DNA of 28,967 nucleotides from a virus, in the IMG/VR virus record IMGVR_UViG_3300028189_000045, positions 1-28,967 of that record; one strand, given 5' to 3'. The translations under genes and the position numbers were made by a program. Positions 4,157-27,535 of the stretch are shown piece after piece; the first letter of the stretch is position 1; each line of letters starts with the position of its first letter. The notes below the pieces were generated by a model that saw only the letters and a list, made by a program, of their open reading frames with translations, ran no database searches and was not told where the DNA came from.

Positions 4157-4795
4157 CTATTTACTCCAAATAACTTTGCCATTTGTATTGTCTGTAGTCG
4201 GTAGAATATCATCGGGGAAAAATACATCTCTTTTGATTAATCCAAAAAGTACAGATGTCTCTTTTAATTTCCAATTCGTTATATATTGATAAGGCTTCAT
4301 TATGTAATAAATTAATTCACTGCATGAAAAAAATCTACTTACTTTATCTTCTTCTTCAAATATAAAATCATAATCGTACGGAACATCTATTTTTTCTTTA
4401 GCTCTTTGTAAAATGACCATAATATTTGAGTGTTCTAGTTGTGGAAACCTTATAACTGCAACTCTGTCGGCTCTCATAAAACTAACTAAATCAGTATATT
4501 GTACATCTGGTGTCATTGAGTGTATTATCTTTTCATCGACTCCACCAACATATAACGATGCATGGCTATACTTTCCGGCTATAAAATATCCATCAAGGTA
4601 CTTATCATAACCTCTAAGAATAATATCTCCTGCTTGAATAATGTCTCTCACTTCATAATAAGAATCGCCTTTTAGTTTAAAAGTCGTTGGTTCAACTACT
4701 ACCCAAAATGGGTATGGATGAATTTTTATATGAGCGAATATCTTTAAAAAACCTGATTGTAATTTATATCTCAGCTTGTCTAACTTTTTTAACAT
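4157..4795 (-). CDS. Permuted NlpC/P60-like hydrolase (YiiX/YebB type)
   Basis: A 212-residue protein with the pattern of the circularly permuted papain-like NlpC/P60 family (YiiX, DUF830). It shows QAGDIILRG near residue 57, then KYSHASLYVGG with catalytic His78, IIHSM, and FFSCSELIYY with nucleophile Cys158 and Glu160. The His-before-Cys order is the permuted one. No signal peptide is clear. Family members are amidases, peptidases or acyl-handling enzymes; the substrate is unknown. It lies among takeover genes, not in the lysis cassette. It is flanked by spacers on both sides (79 and 135 bp), starts with an AAAGGA site, and is somewhat richer in Lys and Phe codons than its neighbours, so it may be a separate acquisition. 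Confidence 0.65.
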   Translation of the reverse strand: MLKKLDKLRYKLQSGFLKIFAHIKIHPYPFWVVVEPTTFKLKGDSYYEVRDIIQAGDIILRGYDKYLDGYFIAGKYSHASLYVGGVDEKIIHSMTPDVQYTDLVSFMRADRVAVIRFPQLEHSNIMVILQRAKEKIDVPYDYDFIFEEEDKVSRFFSCSELIYYIMKPYQYITNWKLKETSVLFGLIKRDVFFPDDILPTTDNTNGKVIWSK

Positions 4796-11634: not shown

Positions 11635-11645
11635 TATGATATAAT
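11635..11645 (+). promoter_or_regulatory. Rightward promoter box TATGATATAAT
   Basis: An extended -10 (TATGATATAAT) in the 49-bp gap before the T5orf172-like gene. It is one of four sites of form TATG(A/G)TATAAT in the window, all in gaps before rightward genes. Confidence 0.5.
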
Positions 11646-12427: not shown

Positions 12428-12438
12428 TATGGTATAAT
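12428..12438 (+). promoter_or_regulatory. Promoter box TATGGTATAAT before the terminase operon
   Basis: CACTTTTTATGGTATAAT lies 18 bp upstream of the ATG at 12457. It has the T-run plus extended -10 form without a -35 box, and shares its 11-mer with the sites at 16206 and 23175. Confidence 0.55.
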
Positions 12439-13149: not shown

Positions 13150-13309
13150 GCAAAGAATTCCTTATAAGAAGGTAGTTGTTAAACCTGATAGAGGCAGTTA
13201 TGTTGATAGACTAAGTAAAGCACTAGATGTAGCCTCTAAAGATACAAGTACGCCTAGAAACGTTAGAGCTCTAGCTAGAAGACTAATGGGTATCGACAAT
13301 GGCTACTAA
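13142..13309 (+). CDS. Small basic hypothetical protein (55 aa)
   Basis: The frame starts MSKQRIPYKKVVVKPDRGSY and ends ALARRLMGIDNGY. It overlaps the end of the small terminase gene by 8 nt and the start of the large terminase gene by 11 nt, which is strong evidence for a coupled real gene. It has 13 Lys or Arg against 5 Asp residues. A packaging accessory or DNA-binding role would fit charge and position, but no family is recognised. Confidence 0.6.
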   Translation: MSKQRIPYKKVVVKPDRGSYVDRLSKALDVASKDTSTPRNVRALARRLMGIDNGY

Positions 13310-15971
13310 GTACCTAAAACTTCCAGTCGAGCAACACCTGAATCTTACTGACTATGAAATGAAAGGCTATATGCCTACAGTTGAAGCTCTTATGTTTGTT
13401 AACTTTATTAAAGAGGTTAATAATGGACAAGAAGAGAATGAGACACCACTAGTTCACTTAAAGATGATGGACAATGTATTTAACAATGATAAGCGTTGTG
13501 CGATCTTATGTCATCGTGGTATAGGAAAACTAGAGACAGAGAATAGTCCTATATTGACTCCTGGTGGATGGACTACTATGGGAGCTATATCTGTAGGAGA
13601 TTCTGTAATAGATAGGCATGGGAAAGCTACTGTAGTTACTTATAAGACAGAGGCTCAGTATCCTGAAACATACCTAATGACTCTTACTGATGGTACTACT
13701 ATGGAAGTAGGAGACGAACATAAACATGTAGTATGGAGAGATAGAAGAACTCCTACTGTAAAACGTAATAGTGAAAAAGTTATGACTACTCTAGAGCTTA
13801 TAGAGTCTGGACTTGTTACTACATCTAAAAGATCTAGTGTTAAAGATTCCAAGTGTTCTTATAGGTTTGGGATACCGCTAGTATCTCCTATAGAGTTTTC
13901 GTATAAACCTGTAGGAATAGACCCATATGTGTTAGGTTTAGGTTTAGCTAACGGCTACTACCCTAAAGGACAGATTAGCTGTCATGCAGATGATATGGTA
14001 GAGTTGTGTAAGTATGTAGGAGACTCTGGATACTCTATTAATAGTATGCGTATAGAAGGTGGTAATGCTGGTCAAATATATATAGGTAGTAAAGTATTTT
14101 CAGAATACTCTGAGCTAAGAAGTGGTAATAAGTACATCCCTAAAGAGTACATGTTAGGTAGTATAGGTCAAAGAGTCCTACTACTTAGAGGTCTTATGGA
14201 TGGAGATGGGCACATAGCTAAAAATGGAGGATGTAGTTACAGTTCGTACAATAGAAGACTGGCTACAGATGTAAGGGATTTAGCTAGAAGTTTAGGTGCT
14301 ATAAGTTATGTAAAAGAGTACATTAGGTCAGATAAAAACTTCGAGACTGAGTATAGAACTATAGTAAACATAAAGGTAAATCCTTTCAGACTAAATAGAA
14401 AGGCATCTAAGTGGAAACCCACTAAGAAGATGACTAAAGGCATAGTAAGTTTAGAGCCTCTCGGTAAGAAGAAAGGTTACTGCATAGAAGTATCTTCTGA
14501 AAGTCATACCTATATAGCTAATGGGTACACGGTAACGCATAATACTACCGTATTTGCAGAGTATTTAATACTTTTCTGTGCAGCATTTGGTTATATACCT
14601 GGATTTGGTAAAACAAACCTTATACTTTACGTTACTGACTCAATTGAGAATGGTGTAAAGAATCTTAGACGTAACGTTGAGTTTAGATATGCTAACTCTG
14701 AGTTTTTACAGAAGCTTATTCCAGATAAGAAGATTAGTGTAGGCGATAATGGTGGATATGTAGATCCTGATGAGTATGAGAGACAATCAGGTGGAGGTAG
14801 AAAGTTTACTGACATTAGATTAGAGTTTAAAAATAATAAGGGTCATACTACTATTGTAAAAGGGTATGGTGCTAAAACAGGAGTTCGTGGTGCTAAAGAA
14901 ATGGGACAACGACCTACTATGGCTATTCTTGATGACCTGGTTTCTGATACAGATGCTGAATCGCCCACTATTATAGCTACGATAGAGAATACAGTATACA
15001 AGGCCGTTTCTAAGGCTCTTAGCCCTACGAAACAAAAGATGATCTGGTTAGGTACTCCATTTAATGCTAGAGATCCATTATATAAAGCAGTTGAGTCTGG
15101 AGCATGGAGAGTATCTGTGTATCCTATCTGTGAAGAGTTTCCTGTAGAGAAGAAAGATTTCAGAGGTAGTTGGGAAGATAGATTTACTTATGAGTATGTA
15201 AGAGATGAGTATGAAGAGGCTCAAGCCCTAGGTATGCCAGCTAACTTTAATCAGGAGCTTATGTTGAGAATTATGTCAGAAGAGGATCGTTTAGTCAAGG
15301 ATTCAGATATTAGATGGTATGATAGCAGTATCATAGATGATAACAAAGCTAACTATAATTTCTATATAACTACAGACTTTGCAACTAGTGAAAAGCAAGC
15401 AGCTGACTTTAGTGTTATATCTGTATGGGCATATACTAATAATGGTGATTGGTTATGGGTTGATGGTACGATTAAACGTCAATTGATGGATCAGACTATG
15501 AATGATGTCTTTAGATTTGTAACTACGTACAAACCAGAGAAGGTAGGTATAGAAGTGTCAGGTCAACAAGGTGGCTTCATTAAATGGATTGAAGATCTGA
15601 TGCTACAACGTAATATATTCTTTAACCTAGCTAGTGATAAGAATAGTGGTGAACCTGGTATAAGACCTAATGGTAATAAGATGATTAGGTTTCAAACTAT
15701 ACTTCCACAGTTCAAGTTAAAGAAGATTAGATTTCCAGAAGATCAGAAAGATAGTGAAGAAGTTAGGGAGATTATCAATGAGTTAAGTAATGCCTCTAAG
15801 AGTGGTTTTAAGAGCAAACATGACGACTTTATTGATACTGTGAGTATGTTATCAGTAATGGATCCGTGGAAGCCTAGCGAAGGCACAACGGTTAGTGTAG
15901 ATAAGGAAGATGGTATATACAAGAGTGATTATGTACCTGAAAGTGAAGACTCGTCATACGACGTAATATAA
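13299..15971 (+). CDS. terL: Terminase large subunit (TerL) with in-frame intein
   Basis: The 890-residue precursor is the ATPase and nuclease that drives DNA into the prohead. Residues 78-415 are an intein; the mature protein would be 552 residues, normal for the family. The Walker A motif HRGIGK|TT is split by the intein and reforms on splicing. Walker B is AILDDLVSD. The C-terminal RNase H-like nuclease has TTDFATSEKQAADFSVISVW (first Asp), KVGIEVSGQQGG (Glu) and SKHDDFIDTVSM (last Asp). GVRGAKEMGQRP and MIWLGTPFNARDPLYKAVES follow the style of N4-like terminases. No product can package DNA unless the intein is removed. The gene overlaps the small basic gene upstream. Confidence 0.92.
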   Translation: MATKYLKLPVEQHLNLTDYEMKGYMPTVEALMFVNFIKEVNNGQEENETPLVHLKMMDNVFNNDKRCAILCHRGIGKLETENSPILTPGGWTTMGAISVGDSVIDRHGKATVVTYKTEAQYPETYLMTLTDGTTMEVGDEHKHVVWRDRRTPTVKRNSEKVMTTLELIESGLVTTSKRSSVKDSKCSYRFGIPLVSPIEFSYKPVGIDPYVLGLGLANGYYPKGQISCHADDMVELCKYVGDSGYSINSMRIEGGNAGQIYIGSKVFSEYSELRSGNKYIPKEYMLGSIGQRVLLLRGLMDGDGHIAKNGGCSYSSYNRRLATDVRDLARSLGAISYVKEYIRSDKNFETEYRTIVNIKVNPFRLNRKASKWKPTKKMTKGIVSLEPLGKKKGYCIEVSSESHTYIANGYTVTHNTTVFAEYLILFCAAFGYIPGFGKTNLILYVTDSIENGVKNLRRNVEFRYANSEFLQKLIPDKKISVGDNGGYVDPDEYERQSGGGRKFTDIRLEFKNNKGHTTIVKGYGAKTGVRGAKEMGQRPTMAILDDLVSDTDAESPTIIATIENTVYKAVSKALSPTKQKMIWLGTPFNARDPLYKAVESGAWRVSVYPICEEFPVEKKDFRGSWEDRFTYEYVRDEYEEAQALGMPANFNQELMLRIMSEEDRLVKDSDIRWYDSSIIDDNKANYNFYITTDFATSEKQAADFSVISVWAYTNNGDWLWVDGTIKRQLMDQTMNDVFRFVTTYKPEKVGIEVSGQQGGFIKWIEDLMLQRNIFFNLASDKNSGEPGIRPNGNKMIRFQTILPQFKLKKIRFPEDQKDSEEVREIINELSNASKSGFKSKHDDFIDTVSMLSVMDPWKPSEGTTVSVDKEDGIYKSDYVPESEDSSYDVI
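13530..14543 (+). mobile_element. Intein with LAGLIDADG endonuclease inside terL
   Basis: A 338-residue in-frame insert between Lys77 and Thr416 of TerL. Block A is LETENSPILTPGGWTTMGAI with SVGDSVID. Block B is EVGDEHKHVVW. Block F/G is GYCIEVSSESHTYIANGYTV ending THN. The first residue is Leu instead of Cys or Ser. Block F has Cys395 where Asp is usual, and the first C-extein residue is Thr, so it resembles class 3 inteins, which use an internal Cys nucleophile; Trp146 lies near but not exactly at the expected block B site. The homing domain has LAGLIDADG motifs at 211-219 (VLGLGLANG, with Asn in place of Asp) and 296-304 (LRGLMDGDG). Confidence 0.88.
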
Positions 15972-16205: not shown

Positions 16206-16216
16206 TATGGTATAAT
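16206..16216 (+). promoter_or_regulatory. Promoter box TATGGTATAAT before the adaptor/tail fibre genes
   Basis: CTATGGTATAATTTTAAA lies in the 45-bp gap 26 bp before the ATG at 16243. It is an exact repeat of the 11-mer at 12428 and 23175. Confidence 0.55.
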
Positions 16217-22696: not shown

Positions 22697-23065
22697 ATGG
22701 GTTTCATGGATATATTTTCAACCAGCTCTATAGACACTGCGGTTAATGCAATAGTATCTACTGGTGATGCTTTGGTGTTTACGGAAGAAGAGAAGAAAGA
22801 GCTAAATAAGAAAGTTATAGAGTTCAAGTTTGAAACATTGACTAAGAATGGTAACTTCCAACTTGCTCAGAGATACTTAGCTGTATTGTTTGCTGTAAAC
22901 TTCTTTGCTGCATTCTGGGTAGGTGTATTTATATACTTCTTTAATGAGTCAAAACTAGATGGATATATGCAACTTGTAGCAGTCTTTAACTTAGGTTGGA
23001 TAGCAATGGCTATATTTAGTTTCTATTACTCTGGTGGATTTATTAAGTCATTCAAGAGTAAGTAA
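22697..23065 (+). CDS. Holin-like membrane protein (122 aa)
   Basis: It starts MGFMDIFSTSSIDTAVNAIV. A charged helix with TEEEKKELNKKVIEFKFETL is followed by two hydrophobic segments (YLAVLFAVNFFAAFWVGVFI at about 60-80 and LVAVFNLGWIAMAIFSFYYS at about 92-111) and a basic tail SFKSK. This plan resembles the holins related to gene-transfer-agent 3TM holins. It would open the inner membrane for the endolysin encoded 2 kb downstream. Family assignment is from layout; the gene order supports it. Confidence 0.6.
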   Translation: MGFMDIFSTSSIDTAVNAIVSTGDALVFTEEEKKELNKKVIEFKFETLTKNGNFQLAQRYLAVLFAVNFFAAFWVGVFIYFFNESKLDGYMQLVAVFNLGWIAMAIFSFYYSGGFIKSFKSK

Positions 23066-23174: not shown

Positions 23175-23185
23175 TATGGTATAAT
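23175..23185 (+). promoter_or_regulatory. Promoter box TATGGTATAAT before the lysis/envelope genes
   Basis: Exact repeat of the 11-mer at 12428 and 16206, 27 bp before the ATG at 23213. It would give separate expression of the spanin-like, PstS-like, barrel and endolysin genes. Confidence 0.55.
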
Positions 23186-23212: not shown

Positions 23213-23599
23213 ATGAGTGATGAGACTAATTTAAAGATCCTTGAAGCATTAGGTAGGCTCGAAGGAACTATCGGTGAGCACAGAAAAGAAGAGAAACGTT
23301 CTCCAATCCCTAATGTTATTAGAGGGGAACTCCTAGCTGCATTAGTATTACCTATTGTATCAATCATAGGTGTATACATAGATATTAACACAAGGCTAGT
23401 TATTATAGAGTCTGCTGCAGATATCGCTAATAAAGAGATAGTCAGAAACTCAGATTACCATGATAGTATTGATACGAGAACAGCAGCATTAGATGCTGAA
23501 CTTATAAAACTGAATGCGAGTTTAGTAGACCTTACTTCAACAACTTCTCAATCAATGATGAATGTTGGTAGAAGATTAAGAGCACTGGAGAAAAAATGA
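23213..23599 (+). CDS. Membrane-anchored coiled-coil protein, possible spanin (128 aa)
   Basis: Starts MSDETNLKILEALGRLEGTI. After 35 polar residues comes one transmembrane helix (LLAALVLPIVSIIGVYI, about 40-57), then a long helical, heptad-rich part (ALDAELIKLNASLVDLTSTT) ending RRLRALEKK. The plan (short cytoplasmic head, one helix, coiled periplasmic domain) fits an inner-membrane spanin or a holin accessory. No partner lipoprotein is evident. It overlaps the next gene by ATGA. Confidence 0.55.
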   Translation: MSDETNLKILEALGRLEGTIGEHRKEEKRSPIPNVIRGELLAALVLPIVSIIGVYIDINTRLVIIESAADIANKEIVRNSDYHDSIDTRTAALDAELIKLNASLVDLTSTTSQSMMNVGRRLRALEKK

Positions 23600-24015
23600 T
23601 TAAGCTATTATTACCACTATTACTATCATTAAACTTATTAGCAGAATCTCTATCAGACTATATTGGCAGTACTGAAGCTGTAGCTAATGAGATGGATGCA
23701 ATTGAGCTATCTGTTTATGAACTCAACTATATGTACTTAGGTAAATTAACTCACTGGAGTGATGGAAGTGAAGTAACAATACTTGTTAGAGACTTGGATA
23801 GCTATACACAGAAGAACTTCATAGTATCAATGCTAGGTGTATCAATAGCTAGATACAAAGAGATAATAGCATCCACTAAGAGCATAAAGACAATTAGTAA
23901 TAAAGTGCTAGTACCTGAAATGATAAAGCATCAAGGTACACTCACTATAATAAGTAGTGATGAATTGTATCTATGTACAGAAAATGGGTTAGTTAAAGTG
24001 GAGATAATTGAATGA
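23596..24015 (+). CDS. PstS-like short periplasmic substrate-binding protein
   Basis: A 139-residue protein with a signal peptide (MIKLLLPLLLSLNLLAES) and a domain like the short phosphate-binding PBP proteins of proteobacteria: NYMYLGKLTHWSDGSEV matches 'IFLGK...WPDG', then RDLDSYTQKNFIVSMLGVS matches 'RxxFxxxxLGxS', and HQGTLTIIS matches the final 'GxIGYI'. Host relatives are usually about 140 aa and often neighbour porin-like genes. Here the next gene is an outer-membrane barrel, overlapping by ATGA. The usual phosphate-binding residues cannot be confirmed by eye, so ligand binding is uncertain. A phosphate-related or envelope-modifying role during infection is inferred. Confidence 0.6.
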   Translation: MIKLLLPLLLSLNLLAESLSDYIGSTEAVANEMDAIELSVYELNYMYLGKLTHWSDGSEVTILVRDLDSYTQKNFIVSMLGVSIARYKEIIASTKSIKTISNKVLVPEMIKHQGTLTIISSDELYLCTENGLVKVEIIE

Positions 24016-25157
24016 AACATTTATTACTCGCAACACTGCTAACACCAGCTATCCTTATAGCGAACGATTACCTAACAGGAAACCTAGAGCTTACAGCTGT
24101 TAATACATACTCCAAGCCTATCGAGAAGTCATTTCATGTAAATGAGAATCCATTAAGAGCTGTAATCACATTAAATGGGGGATACAGTCTAGGTAGCTTT
24201 GACTTAGAGGCTAGAGTATCAAACAGAATGGATGACACATACATAGAGAAAGCATCTATTGCTTATTCTGGAAGAAATGGTAACCATGTTTATAAGACAG
24301 AGGTTGGTACTATAGATACTTTCCAAGGTGTATTTGAAAATACTAAAACTGCTAACGAACAAAACCCTTTCATATTCAAGAATCATGGTGTATATAACAA
24401 TGAGTTCCTTGAAGGGTACTTATCTACTACATTAGGTATTCAACAAACATACTCATACCTACCCAATGGTAAGTATATACTTACTGCTAAATATTCACTT
24501 ACACAAGCTAGAGAGTTAGGTGAGGATAGAGCAGAAGGGTCATTCTACGGCTATAATAGCCAATATGTAGACCTAGATTATACCGAGTCTATTCAATCAA
24601 TAGATTTACATCTAATATACAAAGACCATTTCTCTTTATTTTTAAATAAGGCTAGAATACCTGTTGGAGTCAATCCTACTGAGGGTACTCCAACTAGTGA
24701 TTTTGATAGGTATATGTTATACCTCGCAGATAAAGACTCCTCCGTATTTGCTCCTAAGAGCGACTTCCTTATAGACATAGATAGAATAGGTATAATAGGT
24801 AGTAATAAATATCTTACATATGGGTATGAAGCATTCCATATGTACATGGAAAATGAAGACATAGATGTTAGTTACCACACTATAGGTCAAATGCATTATC
24901 TTGCTACGTACTTAACTGACACCATCACACCATACGTATCTTATGGTAGTTCTTTAAATAGTAAGAAATATTCTAGGTTATATGAAGATTACAGTGCAGG
25001 TGTTAGGTATGTGTATAATAAGCATGTAACAGGTCTTGTTGAATGGAAACAATCTAGTTGGATTCAACATAAGACTTTTAAGGAACACAAAGAGTACTTA
25101 TCCCAAGACTCAAGACATATAGAGCTTATTAGCGCTCGATTAATACTAAGTTTCTAG
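24012..25157 (+). CDS. Outer-membrane beta-barrel (porin-like) protein
   Basis: A 381-residue protein with a signal peptide (MKHLLLATLLTPAILIAND). The chain alternates polar and hydrophobic residues in strands typical of barrels (LRAVITLNGGYSLGSFDLEA; KYILTAKYSLTQARELG; LTYGYEAFHMYMENEDID; ITPYVSYGSSLNSKKYSRLY) and ends in LISARLILSF, the C-terminal aromatic signal for outer-membrane insertion. There is no plug domain or TonB box. It is translationally coupled to the PstS-like gene. Barrels of this type in bacteria move anions or small solutes; in a phage it might change uptake, block the receptor against rival phages or assist lysis. Confidence 0.7.
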   Translation: MKHLLLATLLTPAILIANDYLTGNLELTAVNTYSKPIEKSFHVNENPLRAVITLNGGYSLGSFDLEARVSNRMDDTYIEKASIAYSGRNGNHVYKTEVGTIDTFQGVFENTKTANEQNPFIFKNHGVYNNEFLEGYLSTTLGIQQTYSYLPNGKYILTAKYSLTQARELGEDRAEGSFYGYNSQYVDLDYTESIQSIDLHLIYKDHFSLFLNKARIPVGVNPTEGTPTSDFDRYMLYLADKDSSVFAPKSDFLIDIDRIGIIGSNKYLTYGYEAFHMYMENEDIDVSYHTIGQMHYLATYLTDTITPYVSYGSSLNSKKYSRLYEDYSAGVRYVYNKHVTGLVEWKQSSWIQHKTFKEHKEYLSQDSRHIELISARLILSF

Positions 25158-25165
25158 GAGAGTAA

Positions 25166-25582
25166 ATGAAAAGTAAGAAGTTTAAGATACATGAGTTAGT
25201 TCCACTACCACTATATAATAATATAAAAGAAGACATTCTTTGGAAGCTCCTAGATGATACTTTGCTTCTTACGATAGATGCTATTAAAGAAAAGTTCCCA
25301 AACGGTTCAATGACTATTAACAACTATAAGTGGGGTGGAGATAGAGGCTGGAGCGGTCTTAGAACTAAAGACTCTCAATACTATTCAGAAGGTTCTCAAC
25401 ACTCAATAGGTAAAGCTATAGACTGTATCTTCTCTGAGTATACTACAGATGAAGTTAGAGACTATATCCTGTATCATCAGGATGAGTTTCCATATATAGG
25501 TGGCATAGAGATGGGTGTATCTTGGTTACATTTAGATGTAAGACCAAGAACAAATGAGAAGATTAATCTCTTCTATAAATAA
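25166..25582 (+). CDS. Peptidase M15 family endolysin
   Basis: A 138-residue zinc peptidase with both M15 motifs: EGSQHSIGKAIDCIF (SxHxxGxAxD, zinc ligands His79 and Asp86) and VSWLHLDVRPR (WxHxD, with His122). The family cuts the peptide stem of peptidoglycan (D-Ala or L-Ala-D-Glu bonds). It lacks a signal peptide, so it should need the holin-like protein for release. GGAG lies before the start, eight bases after the barrel stop. Confidence 0.85.
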   Translation: MKSKKFKIHELVPLPLYNNIKEDILWKLLDDTLLLTIDAIKEKFPNGSMTINNYKWGGDRGWSGLRTKDSQYYSEGSQHSIGKAIDCIFSEYTTDEVRDYILYHQDEFPYIGGIEMGVSWLHLDVRPRTNEKINLFYK

Positions 25583-25591
25583 GGATAGGGT

Positions 25592-27535
25592 ATGGAAAAA
25601 GAGCAAATTAGTAAAGTACTATTACACGCAAAAGCTGACTATAAAGGCAGTGAAGTATCTAAGAATGAAAATGATAAACTAATTAGCAAATGGGAGAGTG
25701 TCAAAGACTCTAAACTCTATGGCACAGAAGTAGATCATAAAAGTAAGTATGTTAGTGATTTAACTGAAAATTTATTAGATTGGCAAATACCCTCTATTGT
25801 AGATCCATTTACTAGCTCTAAAGACCTTATTAATGCTAAAGCGTTTACTCATGAAGATGATGCAATTGCAGAGCAAGAAGAGGCTGTATTAAGTTATCAG
25901 GTTATACAAAGAATGGATCACTTTTCATTTATGACAGATCTAGTTACGTATATAGCTGAAAAAGGGACAGCGTTTGTTAAGACTGGTTGGAACTTTAAAG
26001 AAGAAGAACAAGAGATAGAACAACCAGTTATGGCTATTGATCCTATGACAGGTCAACCTGTACAAGTAGGTGTAGAATTAGTTAAGCAAATGGTTACTAC
26101 ATTAAATGAGCCTTTTAGAACGGTTATTGATCCTATAGATATCCGTATGGATCCTACATGTAGCGGTAAAGTTGCTAATGCTTCATTTGTTATTCATGAC
26201 TGGGAGACAGATCTATCTAGCTTACGTAAAGATGGTAGATATAAGAATTTGGATAAGCTAGTTAATCAACTAGAACGTGATGAAACTTATGAACAAAGAG
26301 ATTCAACTGATGATACTTTTAGATTCGAAGATGATATACGTAAGAAATTTATTGTACATGAGTATTGGGGTAACTATGACCTTAATGATGATGGTATTGC
26401 TGAACCTATCGTTATTGCTTGGGTTGGTGATGTTATTATTCGGGAAGAAGATAACCCTCTACCTGGTCAAGAGATACCATTTGAAAAAGCAGTATATAAG
26501 AAAGTACCTGGTTCAATTTGGGGTAAAGCATTAGCTGCTAAGACTGGTAAACGTCAACACATAGATTCAGTACTTCATAGAGGTATCTTTGATGATATGA
26601 AGCTAGCTAATAATGGTCAGACTGGAACTAAGAAAGGCTTCACTGATGAGGCTAACCTTAAGAAGATGAAACAAGGTAAAGACTTTGAGTACAATACTAC
26701 TATGGCAGAGGTATATCAGGATCAATATAGAGGTCTTAATGGATCAGTATTTACTGTACTAGATAGAAACACTCAATCAGCAGAAAGTTCTGTAGGTGTA
26801 AGCCTTATGAATCATGGAGCTGGAGGCAATGCTCTAGGTTCTAGTGCTGCAGCAGTAAATGCTACAACTACTTCATCTGCTAAGAGAGAGATGCACATTA
26901 CTCAAGGTATAGCTGAAGACTGTTTAATTCCTATGCTTAAGAAGTTTAGTACATATAATGCTGAGTTTTTAAGTCCTGAAGAAGTAATGGCTATTACTGA
27001 TAAACCTTATGTAGAGTCTAAGAATGGTAAGCAGTTTGATATTAAGCTTACGTTAGAGTCTGCAGAGACTAGAGCAGCTAAAGCACAGTCTACTGGATTT
27101 GTATTACAAACTATGGGACCTAACATGCCTCAAGCATCTCAACAGAAACTACTTGCTAGATACATGAAGCTCATAGGTGAACCAGATATTGCGTTTGCTA
27201 TTGAAAACCCTGAACCAGATCCTGCTCAAGAACAAGCTCAAGCGTTTGCTGAACAAATGCAGATGCTAGAGATGGAAAAACTTAAAGCACAAATTGCTAA
27301 TGAACAAGCAAAAGGTGAAGAGAATAGAGTTGATATTGAACTTAAGAGAGCTAAGACTAGAGAGATCATGAGTAATTCAGATCTTAAAGATCTTGACTAC
27401 CTTGAAAAGGAACAAGGTATCCCTCATCAAAGAGAGATGGAAAAACAAGGACAACAAGTTGATAAAGAGCTTACAAAGCAACAAATGGCGGATCAAGCTA
27501 GATTAGACGCTGTAAAAAGTAAAGTCGGAGCGTAG
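25592..27535 (+). CDS. Portal protein
   Basis: A 647-residue protein starting MEKEQISKVLLHAKADYKGS, with YVSDLTENLLDWQIPSIVDP, ITYIAEKGTAFVKTG-like text (VTYIAEKGTAFVKTGWNF), FRTVIDPIDIRMDPTCSG, FVIHDWETDLSSL and VHEYWGNYDLNDDG. The order of helical N-terminus, mixed wing and stem, and a long Gln- and Glu-rich C-terminal helix (EQAQAFAEQMQMLEMEKLKA) is that of podovirus portals such as N4 gp59. Portals form the dodecameric ring through which DNA passes and bind the terminase. AAGGATAG precedes the ATG. Confidence 0.75.
   Translation: MEKEQISKVLLHAKADYKGSEVSKNENDKLISKWESVKDSKLYGTEVDHKSKYVSDLTENLLDWQIPSIVDPFTSSKDLINAKAFTHEDDAIAEQEEAVLSYQVIQRMDHFSFMTDLVTYIAEKGTAFVKTGWNFKEEEQEIEQPVMAIDPMTGQPVQVGVELVKQMVTTLNEPFRTVIDPIDIRMDPTCSGKVANASFVIHDWETDLSSLRKDGRYKNLDKLVNQLERDETYEQRDSTDDTFRFEDDIRKKFIVHEYWGNYDLNDDGIAEPIVIAWVGDVIIREEDNPLPGQEIPFEKAVYKKVPGSIWGKALAAKTGKRQHIDSVLHRGIFDDMKLANNGQTGTKKGFTDEANLKKMKQGKDFEYNTTMAEVYQDQYRGLNGSVFTVLDRNTQSAESSVGVSLMNHGAGGNALGSSAAAVNATTTSSAKREMHITQGIAEDCLIPMLKKFSTYNAEFLSPEEVMAITDKPYVESKNGKQFDIKLTLESAETRAAKAQSTGFVLQTMGPNMPQASQQKLLARYMKLIGEPDIAFAIENPEPDPAQEQAQAFAEQMQMLEMEKLKAQIANEQAKGEENRVDIELKRAKTREIMSNSDLKDLDYLEKEQGIPHQREMEKQGQQVDKELTKQQMADQARLDAVKSKVGA

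Follow-up and report, generated by a model that had tools for sequence, protein, structure and literature searches.

Gene organization of the late block

The window analysed here covers an entire IMG/VR contig (28,967 bases). Its late block runs in the order GDSL/laminin-G protein, 52-aa ORF, 122-aa membrane protein, genes for proteins of 128, 139 and 381 aa, endolysin and portal. As the portal protein (25592..27535, + strand) is of the SU10/N4 type (PF23899, E=3.5e-93; phrog_1216, E=8e-127), we classify the source by sequence as an N4-like phage, whose genome is incomplete on the contig. Its nearest relatives in a search of phage records had portals of about 37% identity, and the portal gene was used as the anchor for comparing the window with related phages. 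The phage looks virulent. The contig also encodes ThyX, a terminase large subunit split by an intein that carries a LAGLIDADG endonuclease domain (13299-15971; PF14528, TIGR01443), and, on the strand opposite to the late block, a permuted papain-like amidase of the YaeF/YiiX C92 family (4157-4795, - strand; PF05708, E=7e-13).

The 122-aa membrane protein (22697..23065, + strand) is holin-like by position and hydrophobicity, matches phrog_9646 at E=2e-5, and has a homologue adjoining the endolysin in the related phage L055. The 128-aa protein (23213..23599, + strand) has by inspection an i-spanin-like topology, with one central TM segment and a C-terminal coiled coil, and gave no significant family in Pfam, PHROGs or NCBIfam. 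It is followed by the genes for a 139-aa protein with a single PstS-like lobe, hereafter mini-PBP (23596..24015, + strand), and for a predicted 381-aa outer-membrane barrel with a C-terminal Phe (24012..25157, + strand), both predicted to be exported. The endolysin gene (25166..25582, + strand; phrog_894 type, E=5e-15), with weak similarity to M15 peptidases, adjoins the portal gene in related phages too.

The initial annotation had described two exported proteins, coupled by ATGA, flanked by a spanin-like gene and the endolysin, and this arrangement was confirmed. Both ORFs are intact; one ATGA overlap joins the stop of the 128-aa gene to the start of the 139-aa gene (23596-23599) and another joins the 139-aa and 381-aa genes (24012-24015), so the three genes are translationally coupled. 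Codon use and GC of the pair resemble those of the rest of the phage. The pair had also been given a promoter box of its own. The box is real in that the promoter-like extended -10 sequence TATGGTATAAT (23175..23185, + strand) recurs exactly, with three copies in the window (23175-23185, 12428-12438 and 16206-16216), each about 27-38 nt ahead of a + strand gene, and two further copies with one mismatch at 11635 and 28457. However, it precedes the spanin-like gene, and thus serves the whole block rather than the pair alone. A sigma-70 promoter scan on its own was not above chance in the window; the repeats constitute a candidate promoter class of this phage. The style of the signal peptides together with the extended -10 promoters would suit Campylobacterota as host.

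The 139-residue protein

The 139-aa protein begins with what by inspection resembles a signal peptide, MIKLLLPLLLSLNLLA followed by ES. No significant family emerged from Pfam, PHROGs or NCBIfam: the match to PF12849 (PBP_like_2; E=0.038) fails the Pfam cut-off, and that to a phage “phosphate transporter subunit” family is weak (E=0.12). Sequence searches of solved structures with this protein and the 381-aa protein returned nothing useful. A profile HMM was then built from 60 bacterial mini-PBP members, with the window protein left out. Among 3,744 phage ORFs it found the 139-aa protein at E=1e-3, and only this protein and its identical copies scored below E=0.6. When the protein was compared by phmmer with the ORFs of bacterial mini-PBP loci, family members came first (best E=6.7e-6).

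The initial annotation had named dissimilarity to PBP folds in structure prediction as grounds for abandoning its reading; the prediction points the other way. In the AF2 model (pLDDT 80, pTM 0.69; 61-row alignment), which has a predicted PBP-type fold, the first 16 Foldseek matches are all PstS-type proteins (best E=6e-5), with TM-scores of about 0.6 by query length and 0.2-0.4 by target length. Among solved structures, phosphate-binding proteins come closest, and they include a cyanophage PstS.

The protein has the size (about 135-150 aa) and signal peptide of the mini-PBP family, and keeps the family core [FY]LGK...[FW].[DN]G and a conserved Phe (Y47-L48-G49-K50, W54, D56-G57 and F75). The family motif YWSKLIFTGKGxPPK is missing, with YKEIIASTKSIKTIS in its place, as is AIGYID, replaced by TLTIIS. 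Nor is the GSGT phosphate loop of PstS retained, the loop region reading RDLDSYTQ, and there is one lobe where PstS has two. By these sequence matches, the protein is classed with the bacterial mini-PBP family, as a diverged member that consists of one PstS-like lobe.

The 381-residue protein

The 381-aa protein also starts with a signal-peptide-like segment (MKHLLLATLLTPAILIA followed by ND, by inspection). We found no significant family in Pfam, PHROGs or NCBIfam, no convincing sequence match in the databases, and no homologue at a convincing E-value in 150 Colwellia-family genomes. Its AF2 model (pLDDT 76, pTM 0.75) has 16 long strands and ends in Phe, and Foldseek matches it to OmpT, OmpF, OmpC and similar porins at E about 1e-10; the fold is partly conditioned by the input, because the 50-row alignment, which included the bacterial partner porins described below, consisted of porins. 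Independent support comes from the signal peptide, the C-terminal Phe and the strand alternation, whose level was reached by 27 of 2000 strand-wise shuffles. The porin-like barrel of the initial annotation thus stands, as a predicted 16-strand outer-membrane barrel of porin type.

Kinship with the bacterial partner porins in sequence is no more than suggestive. The HMM score between them is not significant, and hhalign gives a local single-comparison P=0.003. The barrel ranks partner porins above other ORFs with an AUC of 0.87-0.89, compared with 0.70-0.73 when its sequence is shuffled or reversed, a difference for which general barrel resemblance could suffice.

The bacterial mini-PBP and porin genes

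A consensus probe, used as bait only, retrieved genuine mini-PBP members and with them a large bacterial family of about 135 aa that goes under the annotation “phosphate ABC transporter substrate-binding protein”. A genome scan gave 529 candidates, of which 80 were kept, almost all from Gamma- and Betaproteobacteria; these 80 are biased towards YWSKLIFTG members, because a similar probe was the first row of the scan alignment. As YWSKLIFTG was also the scan pattern, the motif is invariant in the set partly by design, and it may not be defining for the whole family.

Short PstS-like proteins beside porin-like barrels had been called a bacterial pattern, and they are one: a porin-type neighbour of 350-470 aa is present at 75 of 90 mini-PBP loci (just upstream in 66, just downstream in 13, absent in 15). 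The phage gene likewise has a porin-type barrel of this size next to it. Where the partner genes are annotated in plasmids, they are named porin or hypothetical protein, and several annotated pairs adjoin genes for methyl-accepting chemotaxis proteins, EAL proteins or diguanylate cyclases. Among the longest same-strand neighbours of 45 loci, raw counts were 17 for MCPsignal, 7 for GGDEF and 6 for EAL. Judging from these neighbours, the bacterial pair seems to be less a transport system than a companion of chemotaxis and c-di-GMP sensors. Seven loci (L092, L097, L100, L104, L107, L142 and L164) contain two mini-PBP genes, sometimes with several porin-type neighbours.

That the phage took up a host module, as had been proposed, appears largely right for the mini-PBP. 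For the barrel it is plausible, being backed by fold and gene order but not by sequence.

Distribution in phages and the lysis blocks of relatives

The identical pair was found in one further contig (IMGVR_UViG_3300025596_000016), and a comparison of 13.4 kb showed this contig to differ from the window by 1 base. A third contig, whose portal is 100% identical, starts inside the portal gene, the pair region lying outside it. The nearest different phages (L006, L007 and L010, at 73% portal identity, and L008, at 67%) carry different genes immediately ahead of the endolysin. The pair was in none of 50,697 phage records, and neither protein was found in the INPHARED phages. By tblastn the window proteins had no significant relative in phages and plasmids, and a scan of viral contigs with the bacterial mini-PBP motif produced no other mini-PBP. 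Since only the sister contig has the pair and the relatives lack it, the pair counts as accessory and, to date, as restricted to a single population. The conserved pairing in several phages to which the initial annotation had looked for support was thus not observed. Across the collections searched, the bacterial pair is widespread, and the phage version has turned up in a single phage population.

We scanned 39 cassettes (window, sister contig and relatives) within 4.5 kb of the portal gene. This crude scan found a lipoprotein, the o-spanin candidate, in 16 and a phospholipase-A2-like gene in 7. The window had neither, with no lipobox ORF in the 4.5 kb upstream of its portal gene. By its gene content, the late block of these N4-like phages is a site where envelope-acting genes vary. 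The phospholipase-A2-like genes have a CCxxHD-type motif and lie at L006 635-1003, L007 204-572, L010 8277-8645, L038 7600-7824, L044 7099-7338, L055 6639-7058 and L059 579-884; the L055 protein passes the PF09056 cut-off (29.6 vs 29.4 bits). These genes might serve outer-membrane disruption. Two lysis blocks encode related-looking proteins of 226-242 aa (L011 8979-9659, L015 1000-1728). They combine TM segments at the termini with an extracytoplasmic domain, have no Pfam family and look like sensor domains without an output.

Possible roles of the pair

The reading that we favour, at a probability of roughly 0.35, draws on an analogy with known phage porins and takes the pair to act in late outer-membrane remodelling and superinfection exclusion. 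A diverged phage version of the bacterial module would have been inserted in the late lysis block and would be made together with the lysis and structural proteins. The porin would insert in the outer membrane, with the mini-PBP staying beside it in the periplasm. Remodelling at this stage might displace, mask or deplete a receptor or a host porin, and the infected cell and its debris would stop taking up further phage, as is believed for the Lc and NmpC porins.

Besides the PBP and porin assignments, the bacterial pairing and the absence of the pair beside the endolysin in the nearest relatives, the grounds for preferring this reading are that phage porins adjoin lysis genes and that N4 depends on surface structures. 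In the PA-2 record the lc porin gene has Rz adjoining; in phage 434 the porin gene adjoins the holin, endolysin and spanins; in prophage DLP12, nmpC lies between Q and essD; and an NmpC-like porin is present in 42 phage records. Lc lowers OmpC, the PA-2 receptor, in lysogens; in the open-access literature we found no statement of an effect of Lc on OmpC. These precedents also qualify the view that no phage system with this pair has been described, which is right as to the pair, no other phage pair having been found, but not as to a porin beside lysis genes. Infection by N4 requires NfrA, an outer-membrane protein with a 16-strand barrel (PMC8669472; PMC8594841), and in E. coli depends on a surface glycan under c-di-GMP control (PMC8669472). 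Against late remodelling, Lc and NmpC act in lysogens from their own promoter, whereas this phage looks virulent and the window pair is transcribed with late genes; the precedent leaves the mini-PBP unexplained; neither Lc/NmpC nor the partner porins match the barrel significantly in sequence; and the pair is carried by one phage population only.

Next in rank, though improbable, comes a part in the outer-membrane stage of lysis, with the pair and the coiled-coil membrane protein replacing the o-spanin or phospholipase of relatives. The coupling to the spanin-like gene, the position directly before the endolysin, and the absence from the window cassette of both a lipoprotein and a phospholipase-A2-like gene are consistent with this. 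However, porins normally leave the outer membrane unbroken, 18 other relatives likewise lacked both genes in the crude scan, and the bacterial homologues have no lytic context. As the contig is incomplete, an o-spanin could also lie elsewhere in the phage genome.

The bacterial gene neighbourhoods and the c-di-GMP control of the N4 glycan would fit interference with envelope sensing, in which altered input components of a porin/mini-PBP/sensor circuit change chemotaxis or c-di-GMP output. We regard this as less probable again: the phage pair has no sensor gene next to it, the late stage of expression is ill suited to rewiring signalling, and for the bacterial pair, too, a sensory role is deduced from gene neighbours. 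A bolder version deserves little weight: a virulent phage would have captured two envelope inputs of the circuit, its altered copies changing envelope signalling or receptor display. If true, bacterial sensing would be open to phage action from outside the cytoplasm.

Restriction to one population, with relatives lacking the pair, could also reflect cargo, an accidental host-derived insertion in one lineage without selected function. This is unlikely, as both frames are intact and ATGA-coupled, codon use and GC match the rest of the phage, and the large divergence from the bacterial relatives suggests long maintenance. Least probable of all is uptake of phosphate or another anion during infection in the manner of cyanophage PstS, a job proposed in the initial annotation and consistent with the closest solved structures, but left unsupported because the mini-PBP has only one lobe, with the TM-scores given above, and no GSGT loop, and because no ABC permease or ATPase was seen among the family-searched ORFs of this incomplete contig; expression within the late lysis block argues against it as well.

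Comparison with known systems

The window resembles two-component spanins (Rz/Rz1) in its position in the lysis block and in the i-spanin-like topology of the upstream gene, but has a PBP lobe and a porin in place of the lipoprotein partner. The mini-PBP shares with PstS, including that of cyanophage Syn19 (PDB 7xg7), a PBP-type fold and periplasmic export, both predicted for the mini-PBP; unlike PstS, it has one lobe, has lost the phosphate loop and lies outside any transporter context. Lc of PA-2 and NmpC of DLP12 and 434 are, like the window barrel as modelled, general 16-strand porins encoded by phages beside lysis genes. In contrast to the window, they have no mini-PBP partner, belong to lambdoid, temperate phages and are oriented opposite to the lysis genes, and a tblastn search of all phage records with the barrel returned no PA-2 or 434 record, thus detecting no Lc/NmpC homology.

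Compared with the bacterial pair, the phage copy is without the YWSKLIFTG and GYID motifs and an adjacent sensor gene, its barrel is not alignable with significance, and its genomic context is different. Gene sizes, export, adjacency, the PBP lobe and the porin-type barrel are common to both, and the phage order of PBP then barrel also occurs in bacteria, for example in Alteromonas (L076). Being stripped of the sensor, the phage copy would allow the action of the two envelope proteins to be studied without it. Phage-encoded porins are known from lambdoid phages; new, in the collections searched, are a porin with a periplasmic PBP-lobe partner and a porin in an N4-like phage.
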